64,000 nucleotides of DNA from Melioribacteraceae bacterium (GTDB taxonomy: Bacteria > Bacteroidota > Ignavibacteria > Ignavibacteriales > Melioribacteraceae), in contig JAEINS010000004.1 in the NCBI GenBank assembly GCA_016342755.1, forward strand, positions 1 through 64,000, in the 5' to 3' direction. This document shows positions 4,581 through 18,716 of the stretch, piece by piece. Both the position numbers and the translations under genes were made by a program. Under the pieces are notes generated by a model. The model was not told the DNA's origin and did not search any database. It saw nothing but the letters and a program-made list of their open reading frames with translations. Each line of letters opens with the position of its first letter. Position 1 is the first letter of the stretch.

Positions 4581-5600
4581 ATGAAAGCAATTAATATAAT
4601 ATTCATCATTTTTTCTGCAATTTTTTTTTCAGCATGCGACAGAGCGTTTGTTCCTGAGAATGAGGAACTTTCTTTTCAAATAACAGATCATATATTAAGT
4701 GAATATAACATATCTTCAATTGTATTCGATAAAAAAGGAACCGCGTGGATTGGAACTTTTGAGCAGGGATTAATTAAATATGACGGAAGTACAACCATTT
4801 ATAATTTCTATAATTCTGAACTTCCTGATAGTCTGTATATTTATGATTTGGAAGTAGATTATGATAATATTGTCTGGTTAGGAACCAATAAAGGTCTTAT
4901 CAAATTTAATCACAAACAATTTGAGATTTTTAATACATCAAATTCTCCGCTTGCTGAAAATTTTGTCTGGGATCTGGCCGTTGATCAAAATAACACTTTA
5001 TGGATAAGTTCATGCCGGTTTAAACTTGGCGGATTGATGAAACTTAATAACGGGAACTGGACTCTCTATACACCTGAAAATTCTGAATTGCCGGATAATG
5101 GAGTCAGATGTATAACCGTTGATGATCAAAATAATTTGTGGGGCGGAGTTACTTTTTCGTCAGTTATAAAAATCTCTAATAATAACTGGGAAATTTATGA
5201 TAAAGATGACCTTGGATTTGATCTCTGGGAGATTCTCAGTATTGCGGCTCAAAATGAAGTTGCTTATGTATCTATCGACTATTCATTGTCAAGTGCCGCC
5301 TGGCCGGTTGGACCAACTATTGTTAAGCTTGAAAACAATAAGTTTACCGACATAACTCCTTTTAAGGAAAATGAAGAAATTCCCGGCTATACCGGAAAAT
5401 TAGCCTTGGATAAATATGGAAATCTCTGGACATCATTTCACTCTAACAATGGAACTTATTTAATAGTCTATAAAGATAAAGAGTGGATATACAAAAAAGT
5501 TGATATCCCTGTCACTTTTTACTCTTCTGTAATTAAAGCTGATAAAAGAAATACCATTTGGATTGGAACTCATGAGGGAATATTTTTACTAAAACAATAA
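4581..5600 (+). CDS. Two-component-regulator-propeller (Reg_prop) lipoprotein
   Basis: An extracytoplasmic beta-propeller. A type II signal peptide ends in FFSAC (lipid-acceptor Cys19), so the protein is probably membrane-anchored outside the cytoplasm. At least five repeats carry the Reg_prop signature of a D-x-x-G/N-x-x-W-x-G step followed by G-L-I-K-F/Y: TAWIGTFEQGLIKYD (about 53-67), IVWLGTNKGLIKF, TLWISSCRFKLGGLMKL, NLWGGVTFSSVIKIS and TIWIGTHEGIFLL at the C-terminus. In larger proteins these propellers are the periplasmic sensors of hybrid histidine kinases; here the propeller stands alone (339 aa). It lies 74 bp upstream of the dikinase-like gene on the same strand and may be co-transcribed. 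Ligand unknown. Confidence 0.82.
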   Translation: MKAINIIFIIFSAIFFSACDRAFVPENEELSFQITDHILSEYNISSIVFDKKGTAWIGTFEQGLIKYDGSTTIYNFYNSELPDSLYIYDLEVDYDNIVWLGTNKGLIKFNHKQFEIFNTSNSPLAENFVWDLAVDQNNTLWISSCRFKLGGLMKLNNGNWTLYTPENSELPDNGVRCITVDDQNNLWGGVTFSSVIKISNNNWEIYDKDDLGFDLWEILSIAAQNEVAYVSIDYSLSSAAWPVGPTIVKLENNKFTDITPFKENEEIPGYTGKLALDKYGNLWTSFHSNNGTYLIVYKDKEWIYKKVDIPVTFYSSVIKADKRNTIWIGTHEGIFLLKQ

Positions 5601-5674
5601 AAGAAAAAAGCTATATGAAACAGTCAATTATCCTGACTCAAACAATTTGTAAATATTTTGTAATTGGAGTTAAT

Positions 5675-8572
5675 GTGAAAAGAATCAATAGATATATAAC
5701 CATTTTTTTCCTTTTAATTTTTTTAACCCAGAATGTTTTTTCGCAGATACAAAACAATTCTGTTATCAAAAATTATATTGAAAAATTTAAGAAAGACCAG
5801 CGCGGGCCTTATAAAGAAATTAGATGGTTCTGCAAAGATGGTTCAACTCTCCCTCCAAACGAAAGATGTTCGGAGCCGGGCGGTGTACAAAGAGCAAGTT
5901 ACAAAGAGCAGGTTCAGCATTTAGCAAAGACAAACAAAGTCTATTTAGGACAAATACTTGCCGCCACGGATAACGATGATTTTTGGGACGAAAAAAATGG
6001 GAACATGCGTTTTAAACAATACAAGGTAGAAAAATATTTAAGAGCTGTTGATAACGGCTGGATATTAAGACGGGCTCAATTTTACAGGGGCGCGTTTCAG
6101 GCCGAAAATGAAGAAAACTGGGGAATGGAATTTTTTACTCAGCTTTTAGCTAAAGATGATTTGATCTCTAATCAGTATTTTTTGATCCGGGAATCATTTA
6201 AGGACATACCGCATCAGAGCGATAAAGTAAAAACTCAAAATATTAGAGCCGTATCTAAAAATATCTCGGAAGAATATTCCCCTTTTATGAGTTTAAGAAT
6301 AAAAATTCACGGGCAGCCTGATTTTACCGATCTTGAAAAGGTTAAAGAATTTAAAGAAAAGAATAAATTAAAACTAACTTCGGAGTTACTGCAGAAATTT
6401 GATGAATTAATTGCTGATTTAGAAACTGTTTATAAACCCGTTGATTTTAACTCTATCAATAAACACTTAAAAAACATATCTAAGAATACCGGATTAAAAG
6501 ACACTATATTAACTTTTATAAAGAATTCTCAAAATAATTTGGTAGAGGAAAAAATAAGAGAAGCTGCGGATTTAATCTGGCATATAAGAAAAAATTTATT
6601 GAATGAAAAAAATCCTAAAGGCAGAATTGCTCTATTGGATATATCGCTTAAATTAGAAAATATAATTTTCAGAGAAATTGATACCTGGCAAACCATTAAT
6701 ATAAAGGATCATCTTTTAAAAAATTATGTGCTTTGTAAAGCAATTGCCGCAACCGGTTTAATAGAAATTTGGGAATGGGAACAGTTGCAGAAAAAACTGC
6801 TCCCGCCAAAACTAAATAAAATCAGCTTAGGTGATCTTAACAGCTATCTTGATAATAGCCGCAGAATAGTTGAATGGAGTTTAGGAATGGTGCGGAGTAA
6901 TTATGAAGAAGCGATTAATTTATTTCTGGGATTTGAACCGCTAACCTCCGGTTTTTTTGATGATCTAATTCGCTCATCTTTACTTTTGCCGCAGGGTAAT
7001 CTTATAGAAAAGCTAAACGAATTTGTTTCAGCCAGGGCTTCTCTTTCAAATAACATAATAGATTTTGAAATTAAAGGTTCAATCCGGGGATTAAATTCCG
7101 GTTATGCTATGGGTGAACTTATTGTATTGGAATCCCTGCGTGAAATAGAATTTTCTCAGGATAAGATCTATGTTTTAGAGCGATCCCCGGCGGATTTAAA
7201 ACCCGTTGCAGGCATAGCGACAGTAACTGAAGGAAACATTATTTCCCATATTCAGCTTCTTGCGCGTAATCTTGGAATTCCAAACGCGGTTATTTCACCT
7301 TCAATATTTAATGAATTAAAAAAACATTCGGGCAGAAAAGTGTTTTACGCGGTTTCAAAAAGCGGAACTGTTATTATTAAACTGACCGAAAATATGACTG
7401 CTGCCGAAAAAAAACTATTTGAGAAAAAGATTCGAAAAGATGAAAGAATTAATATTCCTGTAAATAAACTGGAATTAGAAAAATCAGAAATAGTTGATTT
7501 GAAAAATATCAGGGCTAAAAATTCCGGCAGACTTTGCGGGCCAAAAGCCGCGAATCTGGGTGAACTAAAATTTTTATTCCCCAATAATGTTGTAAACGGA
7601 TTTGTAATTCCATTCGGGATATTCAAAACACATCTGGATCAGATTATACCCGGAACAAACGAAACCTACTGGCAATTTCTAGACTATATATTTACCGAAG
7701 CAGAGAAAATGCAGAAAACAAATATTAAGAAGGAGGATATTGAGACTTTCACTTTGCAAAAACTTGGTGAGTTAGGAACTGCTATAAAAAATATAAATCT
7801 TTTACCCGGCTTTGTAAATAACCTGGAAGAAAGTTTCCAAACCATATTAAATAAACCTATCGGAGATATTGCCGTATTCATACGAAGCGATACTAACATG
7901 GAAGACCTTAAAGATTTCACCGGAGCCGGATTAAATCTTACTCTATTTAATGTAATAGATAAGGAAAAAATTCTTCAGGGAATTAGGGATGTGTGGGCCT
8001 CGCCATATTCAGAGCGAAGTTATAAATGGCGGCAGAAATTTTTATTAAATCCGGAAAATGTTTATCCGTCATTGCTAATTATACCAACGGTAAATGTTGA
8101 TAAATCGGGGGTAATGATTACTAAAGGAATTACAACGGCTAATGATAATGATATAACTGCGGCATTCAGTAAAGGAGCCGGCGGTGCGGTAGAAGGTCAG
8201 CAATCGGAAACTTATTTGCTGGCTGATAATAATGAGAATATTCTGCTGTTTCCTTCCAGGGAAATAAAATACAATATACTTCCGGAAACCGGCGGAGTAA
8301 TAAAAGGTATTAGTTCCTTTCAAACTCCGATATTAGAAGAAGAAAATTTGCGGATGCTTAGACAGTTAGCGGAGGAAATAAAAAATAAGCCGGGAACAAA
8401 TAAATCGATTGGTCCCATGGATATTGAGCTTGGTTTTTTGGATGGGAAAATATGGCTATTCCAGATACGTCCTTTTGTCGAAAATAAAATGGCATTAAAG
8501 TCAGAATATCTTGATTCAATTTCATCCGAATTTCCTTTAGATAAAATTATTGATTTAAATCAAAAATTATAA
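5675..8572 (+). CDS. Exported PEP-synthase/glucan-dikinase-like phosphotransferase
   Basis: I chose GTG 5675 as the start: it has GGAG 5 nt upstream and begins directly with a cleavable signal peptide (MKRINRY, a hydrophobic IFFLLIFL core, then VFSQ). The upstream ATG (5615) adds 20 residues and has no ribosome site. The roughly 480-residue N-terminal region is unrecognised. A phospho-histidine swivel domain follows, with GNIISHIQLLARN (His525). Then comes a PPDK_N ATP-grasp region with GPKAANLGEL (622-631), RSDTNMED (737-744), GVMIT (812-816) and FQIRP (929-933). Swivel-before-ATP-grasp is the order of plant alpha-glucan, water dikinases, not of PpsA. All catalytic elements look intact. An ATP-dependent phosphotransferase outside the cytoplasm is odd. 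The substrate is unknown; a glucan is one guess. It is followed after 7 nt by a serine hydrolase. Confidence 0.78.
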   Translation: MKRINRYITIFFLLIFLTQNVFSQIQNNSVIKNYIEKFKKDQRGPYKEIRWFCKDGSTLPPNERCSEPGGVQRASYKEQVQHLAKTNKVYLGQILAATDNDDFWDEKNGNMRFKQYKVEKYLRAVDNGWILRRAQFYRGAFQAENEENWGMEFFTQLLAKDDLISNQYFLIRESFKDIPHQSDKVKTQNIRAVSKNISEEYSPFMSLRIKIHGQPDFTDLEKVKEFKEKNKLKLTSELLQKFDELIADLETVYKPVDFNSINKHLKNISKNTGLKDTILTFIKNSQNNLVEEKIREAADLIWHIRKNLLNEKNPKGRIALLDISLKLENIIFREIDTWQTINIKDHLLKNYVLCKAIAATGLIEIWEWEQLQKKLLPPKLNKISLGDLNSYLDNSRRIVEWSLGMVRSNYEEAINLFLGFEPLTSGFFDDLIRSSLLLPQGNLIEKLNEFVSARASLSNNIIDFEIKGSIRGLNSGYAMGELIVLESLREIEFSQDKIYVLERSPADLKPVAGIATVTEGNIISHIQLLARNLGIPNAVISPSIFNELKKHSGRKVFYAVSKSGTVIIKLTENMTAAEKKLFEKKIRKDERINIPVNKLELEKSEIVDLKNIRAKNSGRLCGPKAANLGELKFLFPNNVVNGFVIPFGIFKTHLDQIIPGTNETYWQFLDYIFTEAEKMQKTNIKKEDIETFTLQKLGELGTAIKNINLLPGFVNNLEESFQTILNKPIGDIAVFIRSDTNMEDLKDFTGAGLNLTLFNVIDKEKILQGIRDVWASPYSERSYKWRQKFLLNPENVYPSLLIIPTVNVDKSGVMITKGITTANDNDITAAFSKGAGGAVEGQQSETYLLADNNENILLFPSREIKYNILPETGGVIKGISSFQTPILEEENLRMLRQLAEEIKNKPGTNKSIGPMDIELGFLDGKIWLFQIRPFVENKMALKSEYLDSISSEFPLDKIIDLNQKL

Positions 8573-8579
8573 AAAACTA

Positions 8580-9839
8580 ATGAAAAGTATAAAGAACATT
8601 TTGCTTATCCTGGCTATGTTATTTTTTACAAGCGGGGATTTAAAACCTTATCCTATTGATGGATATACATTAACCGGCATAAAAAGGCTTCTGAGACTTC
8701 AGTTAATACTGGAAGGAAAAATAATTGATCAAAAACCAATTTCGGGAGCCCTAAAATTATTAAAAGATATCAAATTAAATTTGGCTTGTCCAAGAGGTGA
8801 CAGCCTTGCAGTAATTCCTTCTGCAAATCCAGAATTTCAAAATTCCATTAATAAACTTTTTCCTAATCTGGATGAGAGTTACGCAATTTCTGTTTTAGAG
8901 ATAACAAGTGGTAAAAAAATACGTTATGCCCAAAGGCAGCAGAATAGAGGGTTTATGCCCGGAAGTATTGGGAAACTGGCAATTTTAGCCGGATTGTTTT
9001 CTGAGTTAGAGCAATTATATCCCGACTCATTTGAGGATAGACAACAATTATTAAAAAATACTTTTGTTAAAGCCGGTAAATGGGCAATTACAAATATTCA
9101 CTCTGTTCCTTTTTTTAATCCCGAAAATAATCAGTTCTTCAAACGGACAGTTCAAAATGAGGATGTTTTTTCCTTGTACGAATGGGTAGATCATATGATT
9201 TCTGTCAGTTCTAATGCCGCGGCAAGTATTGTCTGGCGCGAAGCTGTACTTATTAGAGCTTTTAAAAACCGGTATCCTGTATCCGAAGAGACGGCAAAAG
9301 ATTATTTCAATAAAACATCCAAATCGGAATTAACTAAAATTGCTATTTCAGTTGTAAACGATCCGCTTAGAACAATGAAAATTACTGAGGATGAATGGCG
9401 GCTGGGAAGCTTGTTTACAAGTGAAGCAAAAAAAATAATTCCCGGATCGGGCGGAAGTATTGCGACACCTGGCGGACTTATGAAATATCTTATCGCAATG
9501 GAGCGGGGCAAAATTGTTGATGAAAAAACAAGTCTGGAAATTAAAAGATTTCTTTATATGACGGATAAAAGAATTCGTTATGCATCCACTTCAGCTTTAA
9601 CAAATGCGGCGGTATATTTTAAATCCGGGAGTTTTTATAAATGCAAAAATGAGGAAGGTTTTGTATGTGAAAAATATTGCGGTAATGTAGAAAACTTTAT
9701 GAATTCTGTTGTAATTGTCGAGCATCCGGACGGCACAACTTATTTTGTTACACTAATGTCCAATGTTTTAAGAAAGAACTCCAATACAGACCATATGTAT
9801 TTAGCTTCCCAGATTGATAAAATTATTAGAAAAAATTAA
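8580..9839 (+). CDS. Exported serine hydrolase, class A beta-lactamase fold
   Basis: A signal peptide (MKSIKNILLILAMLFF) precedes a PF13354-type domain with the three active-site motifs of penicillin-recognising enzymes: S129-I-G-K132 (SxxK), S210-S-N212 (SxN) and K348-S-G350 (KTG equivalent). At 419 aa it is longer than a true class A beta-lactamase (about 290 aa), with an extra N-terminal segment of about 85 residues and an insertion around 150-190. I see no ExxLN omega-loop motif, so beta-lactam hydrolysis is not predicted; a peptidase or esterase role is equally possible. It lies 7 nt behind the dikinase-like gene, almost certainly in one operon. It converges, 2 bp apart, on the transporter gene that is itself coupled to a second enzyme of this fold. 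Confidence 0.8.
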   Translation: MKSIKNILLILAMLFFTSGDLKPYPIDGYTLTGIKRLLRLQLILEGKIIDQKPISGALKLLKDIKLNLACPRGDSLAVIPSANPEFQNSINKLFPNLDESYAISVLEITSGKKIRYAQRQQNRGFMPGSIGKLAILAGLFSELEQLYPDSFEDRQQLLKNTFVKAGKWAITNIHSVPFFNPENNQFFKRTVQNEDVFSLYEWVDHMISVSSNAAASIVWREAVLIRAFKNRYPVSEETAKDYFNKTSKSELTKIAISVVNDPLRTMKITEDEWRLGSLFTSEAKKIIPGSGGSIATPGGLMKYLIAMERGKIVDEKTSLEIKRFLYMTDKRIRYASTSALTNAAVYFKSGSFYKCKNEEGFVCEKYCGNVENFMNSVVIVEHPDGTTYFVTLMSNVLRKNSNTDHMYLASQIDKIIRKN

Positions 9840-9841
9840 GT

Positions 9842-12724
9842 TTAACCTTTTTCCATTTCTTCTAATACATTTATTGCCGATGATTTTATTTTATGATCAT
9901 CGCTATTAATTAAACTTTCAACCATAACTTTGTATCGGGGATCTTTCCATTGCGAAATAAAATATAGAACTGCTAATTTTATTTTAAGGTCTTTTCCATG
10001 CAGCAGTATTTCAACACATTCATATTCACTTGGCACTTTTATTTTTAGATTTTTTATCGCGACCTCTGAAATAGAATCGAGTGCGGCCGTTTCAATAATG
10101 GGGATTAAAACTCTTTTCAAATATGGATCTAATATGTTATCCAGAAATTCAATTGCGTTTGTTCTAAGATCGGGCTTGTTGCTTTTAATTCCTTTGTAAA
10201 TATTTACTATATCATCATGCGGATATCGTAATCCAAGAAGGTGAAATATTCTTTCAAGATTTCCATCAAGTCTTTTTTCCAAAAGTTTTATAAGACTTTC
10301 TCTGGCTTCTTTTTGGTTTTTAGTTTCAAGATTTTTTTTAGTCTGATTGGCATTAATTTGGGAATAAAGTGCTACAATAGTGTCGTAGTAAAGATTAGCT
10401 TCCTCACTTATGTTTTTAACAATATGCCTTTTGTTAAACTTTAACACCGGAAAATTTTTCTTCAAATTATTTAAAGCTTTTATTGCTTCATTTCTAACAT
10501 TCAATTCTTCTGAACCAATTAACCCGAACAAATAATTTACCGATTTCTGAACACCCACTTTTTCTATTACTGAAATCAATAATATTCTTTTTTCAATGTG
10601 TACATTTTTATCTTTTATTTTCTTGAATAATTCATCAATAATAGAAGATCCATAATTAAGAAGAGTGGTTTTAACAGATTCTTTATATTCATCATTTAAT
10701 ATAAAATCAATTATTTTATCAATAAATTGAGGATCTAAAGTTGATCCGGCCGAAAGTATTGCCTGCTTTACAATTTTGGGATTATTATCCGTAAATGAAT
10801 TATTTATATCGGCATATAAAGAAGAAAACCCGGAACAGCTTATAGCCTTTAGATAATTTATTTTTAATTGGAAAGCTTTTTCGCAATCCTCCGTTAATTT
10901 AATTTCTTCTGAAAGATCTTTTAAAATTGCTTCAATCCTAAATTCATTTTTAAGTGAATGATTTCCTCTGCTTTCAATTGCAAGCGCAAGAATCACCGCT
11001 TCGCGTACTCCATAATTATCCGAAGTCAGATAAGGTTTTATTAACTCACTTAAATTTAAAGTTGTGTGACGAATAAGATATTGAAAAGCCGCAATTTTCA
11101 CTTCCTGTGAAGTATCATTTATCAGTTCGGCAACATCGCTATTAATGTTTTTATTTTTGTAAACGTACAAATTTTGCAGGGTTTCTAAACGGACTTCGGC
11201 GGATGAATGATTTAATAAATTAAAAAGAGGAATAAAAAATCTTTCGTTCTGAAACCTTTTTATTTTTCCAAGCGTAAACAGAATTTGTCTTTCAGAACCT
11301 TTTTCTAAAACTTTAATTAAACCTCCAATTACTGATTCATTTGTCAAATCGAGATTCATTTTCTTCGATTCGGGATGAATCTGATTAACTTTAAGTTTAA
11401 ATAACCGCACATATTCTTTTCTTATTTTAACAACAAGATAAAACCAGAGTATTAAGTGGAGCATAATCAGGAAGCTTACAAAACTGGTAGATAAGCCTAA
11501 TTCAACTACAAATACAAGGAGAATAAAACCTCCAAATCCGGTGGCCATACTATCAATTACAACATCTATAAACGATTTTGTCTGATTTTTAATTTCGTGA
11601 GGAATTGGAAGAGCTAATAATTCAATTCCCGCTTTATTAACAGATTGTTTTAACGAACCTTCATTTGTCTTTAGAAAAATAGCAGCCCAAAGCTCAGGTA
11701 CAAAAAAAAGAGCAACAACCCCCAGTAAAATACCAACTGGCAAAAAAAACAAAGAAATACCAACTCCAAATACACCAACTACTTTTCGTGTTATAAACAA
11801 TTGAATAAACAAAGATGCTATGCTAATAGTAGAAAGCCAAAAGCCAAAAAAAGCTGTCAGCGAATCAGGATCTGTAATTTCCCGGGATGCAATTGCCGCA
11901 AACTGATAATCAACAAGTTTGGCAACAATTACGCTAACGCAAATAATACTTGCCAAATATGTTAAATGTTTCGAATTCCTTATAAGCTGTATAGGATGAT
12001 CCGCAAAGCCATTAAATCTTTTTTTCTGTTCAAATGTTGTTTGAACATCGGCGACACCAATTTTCCAGATTCTCTTTGTAATTGGAATACAGAGGCTTAA
12101 AAGAAAAATACATACAAGTAAAAGGTTTTCACTATTTATTATATACGCCAAAACTGATGCTAAATAGCCGCCAAAAATACCTCCGGCTATTGCACCGGCA
12201 CCAATAAAACCAAATAATCTTTTAGCTTCTCTGCTGCTGAAAACTACGTTTGCCATAATCCAAAACTGGGAAGCGGATAAAACTGCAAAAATTGAGACCC
12301 AGATATAGAAGAGATATAAAACCCATCCTTCCAAAAAATTGAGAGAAAGAAGCACCCAAAAAAGAAAAAACATAAAGATTGAAAAGATGATAGTCGTAAT
12401 AATAATTTTATTTAGCCGGGTAACTTTAAGAACACGGGAATATATAAAGGAAACCGCGGCTACAAATAAAGAAACTAATAAAAACGCGTATGGAAGATTA
12501 TTTGCTCCAAATTTTGAAAGGAAAAGAGAATTTACCGCCGGTTTAAGTATTAAGATAGTTGATATTAATAGAAATATATTCAACTGCATAAGCAATACCC
12601 GCGTAATTTCCCCTTCCCTAACATCAAAAGCTTTTCGCATAAATAATTTCGTGAAAGAAATTAATCCTTCTTTTGTCAGTTCAAAAAACTGATCGGAATA
12701 CTGTATTGCTTTTTGCTTAAACAT
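9842..12724 (-). CDS. ATP/ADP-translocase-like (NTT/Npt) carrier with C-terminal HEAT domain
   Basis: An inner-membrane transporter. The first 440 residues or so hold about 12 hydrophobic segments. The opening helix pair carries ILKPAVNSLFLSKFGANNLPYA, shown here as the family landmark of Npt/Tlc nucleotide exchangers. The remaining 500 residues or so (about 460-960) are a soluble, charged alpha-helical solenoid with recurring leucine/asparagine-rich helix pairs of HEAT type. Characterised Tlc proteins exchange ATP for ADP or move other NTPs; the HEAT-tailed versions found in free-living Bacteroidota are uncharacterised, so nucleotide transport is inferred. Its ATG overlaps the stop of the upstream serine hydrolase by one base (TAATG), which implies translational coupling. 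Confidence 0.82.
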   Translation of the reverse strand: MFKQKAIQYSDQFFELTKEGLISFTKLFMRKAFDVREGEITRVLLMQLNIFLLISTILILKPAVNSLFLSKFGANNLPYAFLLVSLFVAAVSFIYSRVLKVTRLNKIIITTIIFSIFMFFLFWVLLSLNFLEGWVLYLFYIWVSIFAVLSASQFWIMANVVFSSREAKRLFGFIGAGAIAGGIFGGYLASVLAYIINSENLLLVCIFLLSLCIPITKRIWKIGVADVQTTFEQKKRFNGFADHPIQLIRNSKHLTYLASIICVSVIVAKLVDYQFAAIASREITDPDSLTAFFGFWLSTISIASLFIQLFITRKVVGVFGVGISLFFLPVGILLGVVALFFVPELWAAIFLKTNEGSLKQSVNKAGIELLALPIPHEIKNQTKSFIDVVIDSMATGFGGFILLVFVVELGLSTSFVSFLIMLHLILWFYLVVKIRKEYVRLFKLKVNQIHPESKKMNLDLTNESVIGGLIKVLEKGSERQILFTLGKIKRFQNERFFIPLFNLLNHSSAEVRLETLQNLYVYKNKNINSDVAELINDTSQEVKIAAFQYLIRHTTLNLSELIKPYLTSDNYGVREAVILALAIESRGNHSLKNEFRIEAILKDLSEEIKLTEDCEKAFQLKINYLKAISCSGFSSLYADINNSFTDNNPKIVKQAILSAGSTLDPQFIDKIIDFILNDEYKESVKTTLLNYGSSIIDELFKKIKDKNVHIEKRILLISVIEKVGVQKSVNYLFGLIGSEELNVRNEAIKALNNLKKNFPVLKFNKRHIVKNISEEANLYYDTIVALYSQINANQTKKNLETKNQKEARESLIKLLEKRLDGNLERIFHLLGLRYPHDDIVNIYKGIKSNKPDLRTNAIEFLDNILDPYLKRVLIPIIETAALDSISEVAIKNLKIKVPSEYECVEILLHGKDLKIKLAVLYFISQWKDPRYKVMVESLINSDDHKIKSSAINVLEEMEKG

Positions 12725-13635
12725 TATTTTAACGACTGCAAAACTTTTTCAATTACGGGTATAACCGTTCTTAAAATTTCTTCGCCACGGTAATCTTCAA
12801 TTAATCCTACCAAAATATACCTTCTCCATTTTGGTCCCCATACTAAAATTGAATCTGAGTGCCATTCTCTCCATGTGCCCGATTTACGAAACATAATAGC
12901 ATCAGGCACAATTTTATCTAAAGTGTTTACAAATTTATGATGCAGTTCCGGGTCTTCCATTAGCAGAAGCATTTCCAGCGATCTTTCGTAACTAACTAAG
13001 CGTCCAAAAGCCATTAAATAATAAAAACGGCAGACTTGTGTAACGGTAGCGGCATGGCTTAATCCCATCAGCGGATCCGGGTTTCTTTCGCCCTGGCGCG
13101 CGTATTCTTTGCCTACCCAAAGACCTCCGCCAAATTCTTCATCGTATAATTCATACTTAGGATCAGTAAGAACTTCTTCTATTTTTTCATAACCTAATAA
13201 TTCAATCATCCTGGAAGCTGCATTATTATCTGATTTACTAATCATCAGCCGTAAATCATCTTTAACAGATTCTGTCTCTTCAATCTCGCCTCTTTCAAAC
13301 GCGTCCATTGCGGATAAAAGTATAGCAATTTTTGGAAGACTTGCCGCGTACATCATAACACCGCCGTTAACCCTTGCATATTTAATGTTTTCCGGGTCGC
13401 TTATATCAACAACACCAATGGCCATTTTTTTTTCAGTGATTAATGTTTTCCACTCCTTATTTTGCTTTAATTCTTTACTTAACATGTTCTGGAATACTGT
13501 ATCGGTTCTACTGCGAAGCGGGCTTAGTTTTTTTTCAGATATTCTATAAGGAAGGTCAGTTCCTTCTACTGTTTGTGCTAAAACAGTTGCTCTAATTAAA
13601 CTGACAAGAATAATTGAAAGAACAAATGCTCTCAT
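12724..13635 (-). CDS. Exported serine hydrolase, class A beta-lactamase fold (second)
   Basis: The start at 13635 follows AAGGAG with a 7-8 nt gap and opens a signal peptide, MRAFVLSIILVSLIRATVLAQ. A longer frame without a ribosome site exists upstream and was rejected. The active-site set is S99-L-P-K102, S135-D-N137 and K251-S-G253, the standard order in this superfamily. The length of 303 aa is normal for class A enzymes. An E-x-x-L-N omega-loop motif is not evident, so I would not call it a resistance enzyme. It is the first gene of a two-gene operon with the HEAT-tailed nucleotide carrier. It resembles the 8580-9839 product in motifs but is not a close copy. Confidence 0.85.
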   Translation of the reverse strand: MRAFVLSIILVSLIRATVLAQTVEGTDLPYRISEKKLSPLRSRTDTVFQNMLSKELKQNKEWKTLITEKKMAIGVVDISDPENIKYARVNGGVMMYAASLPKIAILLSAMDAFERGEIEETESVKDDLRLMISKSDNNAASRMIELLGYEKIEEVLTDPKYELYDEEFGGGLWVGKEYARQGERNPDPLMGLSHAATVTQVCRFYYLMAFGRLVSYERSLEMLLLMEDPELHHKFVNTLDKIVPDAIMFRKSGTWREWHSDSILVWGPKWRRYILVGLIEDYRGEEILRTVIPVIEKVLQSLK

Positions 13636-17753: not shown

Positions 17754-17795
17754 TTATTTCTTCAAAAACCTCATTAAATCGCTTAAATTTTTATT
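17754..17795. repeat. Direct repeat, right copy (3' end of the LIM-DA1 gene)
   Basis: Forms the last 42 bp, including the stop codon, of the LIM-DA1 coding sequence and recurs with one mismatch at 16856-16897. The offset is 898 bp and the DUF169 gene fills the interval. Confidence 0.85.
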
Positions 17796-18716
17796 CTTGA
17801 ATTGTTTGTAAACCTCACGGAACCCGTCTCCATATTCCACACTCGGATCATTCATTATCTGAGTTCTTAAATCATCCGCATCGCTGCTCATATCAGATTT
17901 CAAATAATAATAGGCAACAAAATTGCAGCTTCCCTCTTCACGTTTTCTGGATAATTTATTTTCAACATTTTCATTAATCCAGACGTGTGTTAATTCGTGC
18001 GCTAAAGTTGCTTCTACATATTTTCTTGGCGTGTTATTTAGAATATAAACTGTATGCTCAAAAGATTTATCGGTTCTATTTCCTCTTGTAGTTTCTCTTA
18101 AACGTGTTTCGGTGTAACCGCGCAGACTGTTTGAGTAACTTCCTTTTGCTGCGGAACGAAGTCCGTTTCTATCTACCGGATAGATCTCAATTTTTTTGGA
18201 ATTTATTTTTAATCCGTACCCGTTTAACTTTCTAATAATTTTGTTAAACAGACTTCTATACTGATCAGTTGAACTTAAAAAACTTTGTGAACATTTTCGG
18301 CAAATATTTCTTCCGTCGGAATATGTAAGTCCGCCACCGGTTAAACTCATTGTCATTAGCCGGTAACAATTATCACACTTTTTATATTCCTTTTCGTGCG
18401 ACTGGTGATATTTTTTTCCATACATATCAATAACATATTTGCCTATTAACGGCTTTTGGCAAACATCGCATTTATCTGTAAACTGATCATGATAACATTT
18501 TTTATCGTAGAAAAAATCCCCGTTTTTGTAATAATCACCTTCAATTGGTTTTCTGCATTTTGCGCATAAAAAATGCCGCGGATGATATTTTTCTCCTTCA
18601 ATAACAATATAAGTACCTTTAATTTCTTTTCCGCAATGAGCGCATATTGCAGTTTGCGCAATTAAAAGTACGTTTAACAAAAACGATATTATTATTATAT
18701 GTTTAGTTATTTTCAT
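17754..18716 (-). CDS. Exported LIM-domain/DA1-like zinc metallopeptidase
   Basis: A signal peptide (MKITKHIIIISFLLNVLLIAQ) precedes a run of Cys/His pairs spaced as in LIM zinc fingers: C25-C28, H48-C51, C54, C74, then C83-C86 and further pairs at C114-C117 and C139-C142. The C-terminal half is a DA1-like peptidase domain (PF12315 type) with the zinc motif H240-E-L-T-H244 and a downstream glutamate-rich EEGSCNF segment where the third ligand is expected. The architecture matches plant DA1, a ubiquitin-activated peptidase, and the rarer bacterial LIM-DA1 proteins. Export of a LIM-bearing peptidase is unusual for a motif best known in the eukaryotic cytosol. It lies 12 bp behind the SdiA-regulated lipoprotein gene, so probably in one operon. 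Substrate unknown. Confidence 0.85.
   Translation of the reverse strand: MKITKHIIIISFLLNVLLIAQTAICAHCGKEIKGTYIVIEGEKYHPRHFLCAKCRKPIEGDYYKNGDFFYDKKCYHDQFTDKCDVCQKPLIGKYVIDMYGKKYHQSHEKEYKKCDNCYRLMTMSLTGGGLTYSDGRNICRKCSQSFLSSTDQYRSLFNKIIRKLNGYGLKINSKKIEIYPVDRNGLRSAAKGSYSNSLRGYTETRLRETTRGNRTDKSFEHTVYILNNTPRKYVEATLAHELTHVWINENVENKLSRKREEGSCNFVAYYYLKSDMSSDADDLRTQIMNDPSVEYGDGFREVYKQFKNKNLSDLMRFLKK

Follow-up and report, generated by a model that had tools for sequence, protein, structure and literature searches.

A predicted exported dikinase, two serine hydrolases and an NTT-HEAT carrier form a co-inherited gene set in scattered genomes of one bacterial phylum

The window analyzed here, a 64,000-nucleotide stretch of contig JAEINS010000004.1 from a Melioribacteraceae bacterium (GCA_016342755.1), carries four adjacent genes for a predicted exported dikinase, two exported serine hydrolases of the SxxK type and a nucleotide-transporter-like (NTT) carrier fused to HEAT repeats (Table 1). 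The dikinase and hydrolase 1 genes follow one another with a gap of 7 nt, hydrolase 1 and the carrier converge and are separated by 2 nt, and hydrolase 2, which has an AGGAG site at its start (13635), is joined to the carrier by a TAATG junction in which its stop codon shares one base with the carrier ATG. This neighborhood, including the translational coupling and the domains of the products, had been laid out in an original prediction made from the sequence alone, and the open reading frames (ORFs) and Pfam matches confirmed it in every detail. The same gene families recur together in other genomes, and the four genes are more than a chance neighborhood.

Table 1. Features of the four-gene locus, with coordinates in the window
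Feature	Coordinates	Strand	Evidence
Dikinase gene, 965 aa: signal peptide, N-terminal domain, phospho-His swivel, PPDK_N ATP-grasp	5675..8572	+	ORF list, GGAG site, PPDK_N match, 14-member alignment
Dikinase signal peptide (predicted), residues 1-23, probable cleavage ..VFS/Q	5675..5743	+	hydrophobic core after K/R-rich n-region
Dikinase N-terminal domain, residues 24-465, mostly helical, fold unassigned, candidate acceptor-binding region, with Cys53/Cys65	5744..7070	+	no Pfam or PDB match
Phospho-acceptor His525 of the swivel domain (predicted catalytic)	7247..7249	+	invariant 14/14
PPDK_N ATP-grasp, residues 620-942, with K624, R737, T756, E918, Q930, R932	7532..8500	+	Pfam PF01326
Hydrolase 1 (419 aa), an exported serine hydrolase of the SxxK type	8580..9839	+	PF13354 (Beta-lactamase2), E 1.6e-5
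NTT-HEAT carrier (960 aa) with a membrane domain like that of nucleotide transporters, then C-terminal HEAT repeats	9842..12724	-	PF03219 5.7e-7, HEAT_2 3e-17
Carrier HEAT-repeat tail	9854..11359	-	PF13646 + alphaRep matches
Carrier transporter domain, residues 1-440, with pocket positions F81, S144, I179, D272, T395	11405..12724	-	carrier alignment + PDB profile alignment
Hydrolase 2 (303 aa), an exported serine hydrolase of the SxxK type	12724..13635	-	PF13354 (Beta-lactamase2), E 1.9e-15

Across the 79 genomes searched from the window's family, the dikinase was found in three others (G066, G185 and G179, the last split over two contigs), and a short-pattern scan of genome contigs added a metagenome-assembled genome from the Saprospiraceae (L040). 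The full set, arranged convergently as in the window, is also present in both L040 and G185, and in G066 the four genes are present across a contig break. For each family, 395 genomes sampled from the phylum, many of them drafts, were searched by profile; 12 full-length dikinases were recovered, and ten of these loci were mapped. The convergence of dikinase-hydrolase 1 with carrier-hydrolase 2 is kept in G386, G512, G291, G302, G391 and G311. The carrier is inverted in G261, where it now follows dikinase-hydrolase 1 and is convergent with hydrolase 2, while in G351 and G364 dikinase-hydrolase 1 faces hydrolase 2 with no carrier in between. The dikinase of G347 is isolated, the four genes of that genome all being present but in four different places. 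G291 and G302 are complete single contigs with the cassette, and cultured strains may therefore exist. The profile searches covered one phylum, with other phyla reached only through the short-pattern genome scan, plasmids and viral contigs; no plasmid record held a full-length relative and the module was not found in the viral contigs searched. PADLOC did not report the module as a known defense system, apart from a weak HEAT match. In the window, the dikinase gene is preceded, at a distance of 74 nt, by a gene for a two-component-regulator-like beta-propeller (Reg_prop) with a lipoprotein-like start (4581-5600, + strand); no such gene was seen at this position in the other mapped loci.

The dikinase is present in 12 of the 395 genomes with scores of at least 994 bits (next best 73), and both hydrolase 1 (at least 510 bits; next best 21) and hydrolase 2 (at least 310 bits; next best 30) occur in exactly the same 12 genomes. 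For the carrier, a genome search with the Pfam TLC model matched nothing, not even the window protein, and was replaced by a profile of cassette carriers; carriers of the cassette type (at least 460 bits) were found in 10 of the 12 dikinase genomes and in none of the 383 others. The 12 genomes are spread over six families and 11 genera, and several families have many sampled genomes without the module. The four gene trees, which are quick trees with several weak forks, recover the same main groups (G291/G302/G311/G391; G386/G512; and the window with G066/G185), and the genes therefore appear to have travelled together. The original prediction had expected the four families to co-occur; they are genetically linked across distant genomes, keep the same order in distant loci and fall within the same 12 of 395 genomes, an outcome in favor of the prediction. 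Functional coupling of the module is well supported by this co-inheritance.

A longer ORF (5615-8572) is possible for the dikinase, but the better start is the GTG at 5675, which lies 5 nt downstream of a GGAG Shine-Dalgarno site and leads straight into a signal peptide (VKRINRYITIFFLLIFLTQNVFS/Q). The hydrophobic core of this segment has a mean Kyte-Doolittle value of 2.55, and an N-terminal hydrophobic core occurs in all 14 dikinases compared, mostly with K/R before it and an A/S-x-x-Q-like end after it. Two cysteines, Cys53 and Cys65, are invariant in the 14 proteins and are the sole cysteines of the dikinase in G386 and G512, a pattern that fits a disulfide and export. The 14 dikinases can be aligned end to end, the 13 others being 39-52% identical to the window protein, and His525 (in the context ISHIQLLARNLGIPN), K624, R737, T756, E918, Q930 and R932 are invariant throughout. 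All 14 match PPDK_N (in the window protein at E 2.6e-24 and 86.6 bits, against a Pfam cut-off of 27), while the swivel signal is weak, with a PEP-utilizers match at E 0.065 in the window protein and matches in 12 of the 14 members (best 0.0014), and GWD1_pHisD is matched by two members (best E 0.012). In the rifampin phosphotransferase of Listeria (RPH-Lm), K22, R117 and T136 are required for rifampin phosphotransfer and E297 is dispensable (PMC4844700); the equivalence of dikinase residues to K22, R117 and T136 was set by alignment. The swivel histidine precedes the ATP-grasp domain, in keeping with the glucan-water-dikinase order read earlier from the sequence, and the signal-like segments and cysteine pair disfavor the cytoplasmic location that had been set beforehand as the alternative to be checked. 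The dikinase is thus very probably exported and catalytically intact. The window genome (G000) encodes several more PPDK_N proteins on contigs C14, C28, C37, C56 and C11, of which two are adjacent on C56 and one on C37 lies in an open frame of ~1700 aa. A reading of these proteins as close paralogues was rejected, as they are of different build and the dikinase search did not match them as relatives.

The N-terminal ~440 residues of the dikinase matched no Pfam family and, by profile, no solved structure; the profile searches against solved structures placed its ATP-grasp domain and the carrier domain only. AlphaFold2, run with only two input sequences, gave a mean pLDDT (predicted local distance difference test) of 35 for the whole protein and 53 for the N-terminal domain and no usable fold, and Foldseek on this low-quality N-terminal model returned nothing below E 0.02. 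Glucan water dikinase (GWD) and phosphoglucan water dikinase (PWD) share with the dikinase the order of a swivel followed by a C-terminal PPDK_N ATP-grasp, and the weak GWD1_pHisD matches are a further likeness to GWD. Unlike GWD and PWD, the dikinase is bacterial, predicted to be exported and has an unrelated N-terminal domain, and its N-terminal 465 residues in the window protein gave no Pfam match to the starch-binding modules CBM45 or CBM20. Rifampin phosphotransferase (RPH), phosphoenolpyruvate (PEP) synthase and pyruvate phosphate dikinase (PPDK) have the K22/R117/T136-type ATP-grasp residues and a phospho-His carrier in common with the dikinase, but these are cytoplasmic enzymes in which the ATP-grasp comes first, the histidine is central or C-terminal and a PEP-barrel or RIF domain is present. 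No Pfam domain for a C-terminal PEP-binding TIM barrel was found in the dikinase, whose ATP-grasp is C-terminal, unlike that of PEP synthase and PPDK.

All residues of the hydrolase 1 motifs S129xxK132, S210xN212 and K348SG are invariant in its 14 members, as are a YPIDG sequence right after the signal sequence and the pair Cys355 and Cys363. Hydrolase 2 likewise keeps S99, K102, S135, N137, K251, S252 and G253 in 14 of 14 members, and signal sequences are present in all 14 members of both families, in keeping with the exported SxxK/SxN/KSG hydrolases first read at this locus. Profile comparison aligns the two hydrolases with each other through these motifs, at low probability. The motifs and export are shared with the class A beta-lactamase-like exported serine hydrolases (PF13354) and the D,D-peptidases. 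In contrast to class A beta-lactamases, neither hydrolase has a strictly conserved equivalent of Glu166 at the examined position, which, as aligned by eye, is E/Q/D/M/A in hydrolase 1 and V/E/R/Q/L/K in hydrolase 2, and both are therefore better seen as penicillin-binding-protein-like hydrolases or transferases than as beta-lactamases. They differ further from PF13354 enzymes and D,D-peptidases in the conserved N-terminal YPIDG and cysteine pair of hydrolase 1, and in that both families were found only alongside the dikinase in the sampled genomes.

The carrier joins a TLC domain (29.1 bits; cut-off 21) to C-terminal HEAT repeats (PF03219 with PF13646/PF02985), and the structures matched by its profile are AtNTT1 and ADP,ATP carrier 1 (9j3j/9j3n, E 6e-16 and 7e-15). 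The same fusion defines the NTT-HEAT proteins of Major et al. 2017, which the accessible part of that report describes as known, widespread in bacteria and functionally uncharacterized, with no mention in that part of a dikinase or hydrolase context (PMC5381601). Compared with NTT-HEAT proteins at large, the cassette carriers are a high-scoring group (at least 460 bits against at most 335 for the others) and are tied to the dikinase and the two hydrolases. A recurrent two-gene arrangement in several genomes places a TLC-HEAT carrier of another group near a second NTT of ~450-467 aa that lacks HEAT repeats, for example at L118 7880-12256 (G364:C7), with matches in G361, G472, G486, G482 and G274. 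Elsewhere in the window, the product of positions 17754-18716 (- strand) is exported and combines a LIM domain with a DA1-like peptidase domain (PF00412, PF12315), as is known from plant DA1.

The data support extracytoplasmic, ATP-dependent phosphotransfer as the probable activity of the dikinase. In the reading favored here, to which a probability of roughly 0.45 is assigned on sequence evidence, the four genes would constitute a single co-inherited cell-envelope module in which the exported dikinase and the two hydrolases act on a shared substrate and the carrier passes nucleotide. The dikinase would be exported through the inner membrane and fold with a conserved C53-C65 disulfide; outside the cytoplasm, the beta-phosphate of ATP would be taken up by His525 and then passed on to an acceptor bound by the N-terminal domain, with the release of AMP and Pi. 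The two exported hydrolases, which are related to class A beta-lactamases and D,D-peptidases, may process the same envelope substrate before or after its phosphorylation, and the NTT-HEAT carrier would most likely move nucleotide across the inner membrane for the dikinase. The carrier may thereby feed ATP to the dikinase, possibly sending ATP out and bringing AMP back instead of exchanging ATP and ADP; such an altered nucleotide specificity, ATP/AMP for example, is speculation that would suit the products of the dikinase. A dedicated ATP-fuelled phosphorylation system beyond the inner membrane, in which the carrier exports ATP (perhaps against AMP), the dikinase phosphorylates an envelope polymer and the hydrolases process that polymer, is conceivable but rather doubtful, and its logic would be comparable to that of Golgi kinases fed by nucleotide carriers.

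Several points weigh against the favored reading. Signal peptides were called by hydrophobicity and hand reading without a trained predictor, and the naive chance of two 12-genome sets coinciding, 4e-23, ignores relatedness and the genome tree. In two of the 14 lineages (G351 and G364) the dikinase and both hydrolases persist but no cassette-type carrier is present; G364 has a TLC-HEAT protein of the lower-scoring group (335 bits) elsewhere and G351 has just a short relative without HEAT repeats. The charged residues important in ATP/ADP translocases are K155, E245, E385 and K527 (PMC4256464), and three of the four are lost in the 13 carriers compared, with K155 replaced by F/Y, E245 by S/A and K527 by T/G/Q. 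The position of E385 is acidic, an Asp (D272 in the window protein), and this numbering was placed on the 9j3j chain by a constant offset of 84 that is consistent for all four residues. What we take to be a pocket Asn of the nucleotide carrier aligns with an Ile. With the equivalents of K155, E245 and K527 lost and Ile at this pocket position, ATP transport by the carrier cannot be assumed. The Npt/Tlc-like HEAT carrier of the original prediction stands as to fold and family (TLC, HEAT, 9j3j/9j3n), and the delivery of nucleotide suggested for it is not supported as regards ATP, given one of four charged residues kept as acidic and two lineages without the cassette-type carrier.

These same observations would suit a carrier that serves the dikinase-hydrolase module by moving, in place of ATP, the acceptor, the product of its phosphorylation or some other organic anion, with periplasmic or environmental ATP coming from elsewhere. 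Genuine ATP/ADP carriers have four charged residues of which this carrier lacks three (PMC4256464), the three exported proteins remain together in the G351 and G364 clusters without the carrier and the periplasm of E. coli receives ATP without any NTT (PMC7432876); the best alignment of the carrier is still with nucleotide carriers and it is co-inherited with an ATP-using enzyme, and such a cargo is a possible though not a likely one. It is improbable that the dikinase is instead synthetase-like, activating a small molecule by phosphorylation in the manner of the prodigiosin ligases PigC and RedH, with the SxxK proteins transferring acyl or ester groups on a secreted metabolite or lipid. The NCBIfam models matched by the ATP-grasp domain include those of PigC and RedH, and the SxxK fold is found in esterases and transferases, but PigC-type enzymes have an N-terminal ATP-grasp and another domain order, and no further biosynthetic genes are conserved around the mapped loci. 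Were the hydrophobic stretch an anchor, the dikinase would be cytoplasmic or face the cytoplasm, where ATP is abundant and the well-known PPDK_N enzymes work, and an envelope precursor would be phosphorylated inside. This arrangement is quite improbable: most of the 14 homologues combine a positive n-region with a short h-region and a signal-peptidase-like c-region, the cysteine pair is invariant (the sole cysteines in two species) and the partner proteins are likewise exported. Finally, the dikinase might run in reverse outside the inner membrane, using a phosphorylated donor to convert AMP into ATP, which the carrier would then import. We know of no phosphodonor outside the cytoplasm. Bacterial and protozoan PPDK does run in the ATP-forming direction (PMC5371819). 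The dikinase is without a PEP-binding TIM barrel and no feature of the locus favors the reversal, the chance of which is very small.

Each of the four proteins is a member of a known superfamily, and it is the architecture of the exported dikinase and the set as a co-inherited whole that correspond to no described kind. A literature search of incomplete coverage found no described periplasmic dikinase or four-gene set, and to our knowledge no system of this kind has been described. By textbook logic, the periplasm is not a place where enzymes that use ATP operate, and ATP is not normally supplied outside the inner membrane. A conserved module with an apparently exported, intact dikinase and an adjacent relative of ATP carriers makes this rule testable. 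The module also provides a functional context for the widespread and uncharacterized NTT-HEAT family, for which we know of no earlier one. Periplasmic ATP has been measured in E. coli and its route across the inner membrane is an open question on which the module bears (PMC7432876). The occurrence of the four-gene set in scattered members of one phylum suggests undescribed, energy-driven chemistry outside the inner membrane.

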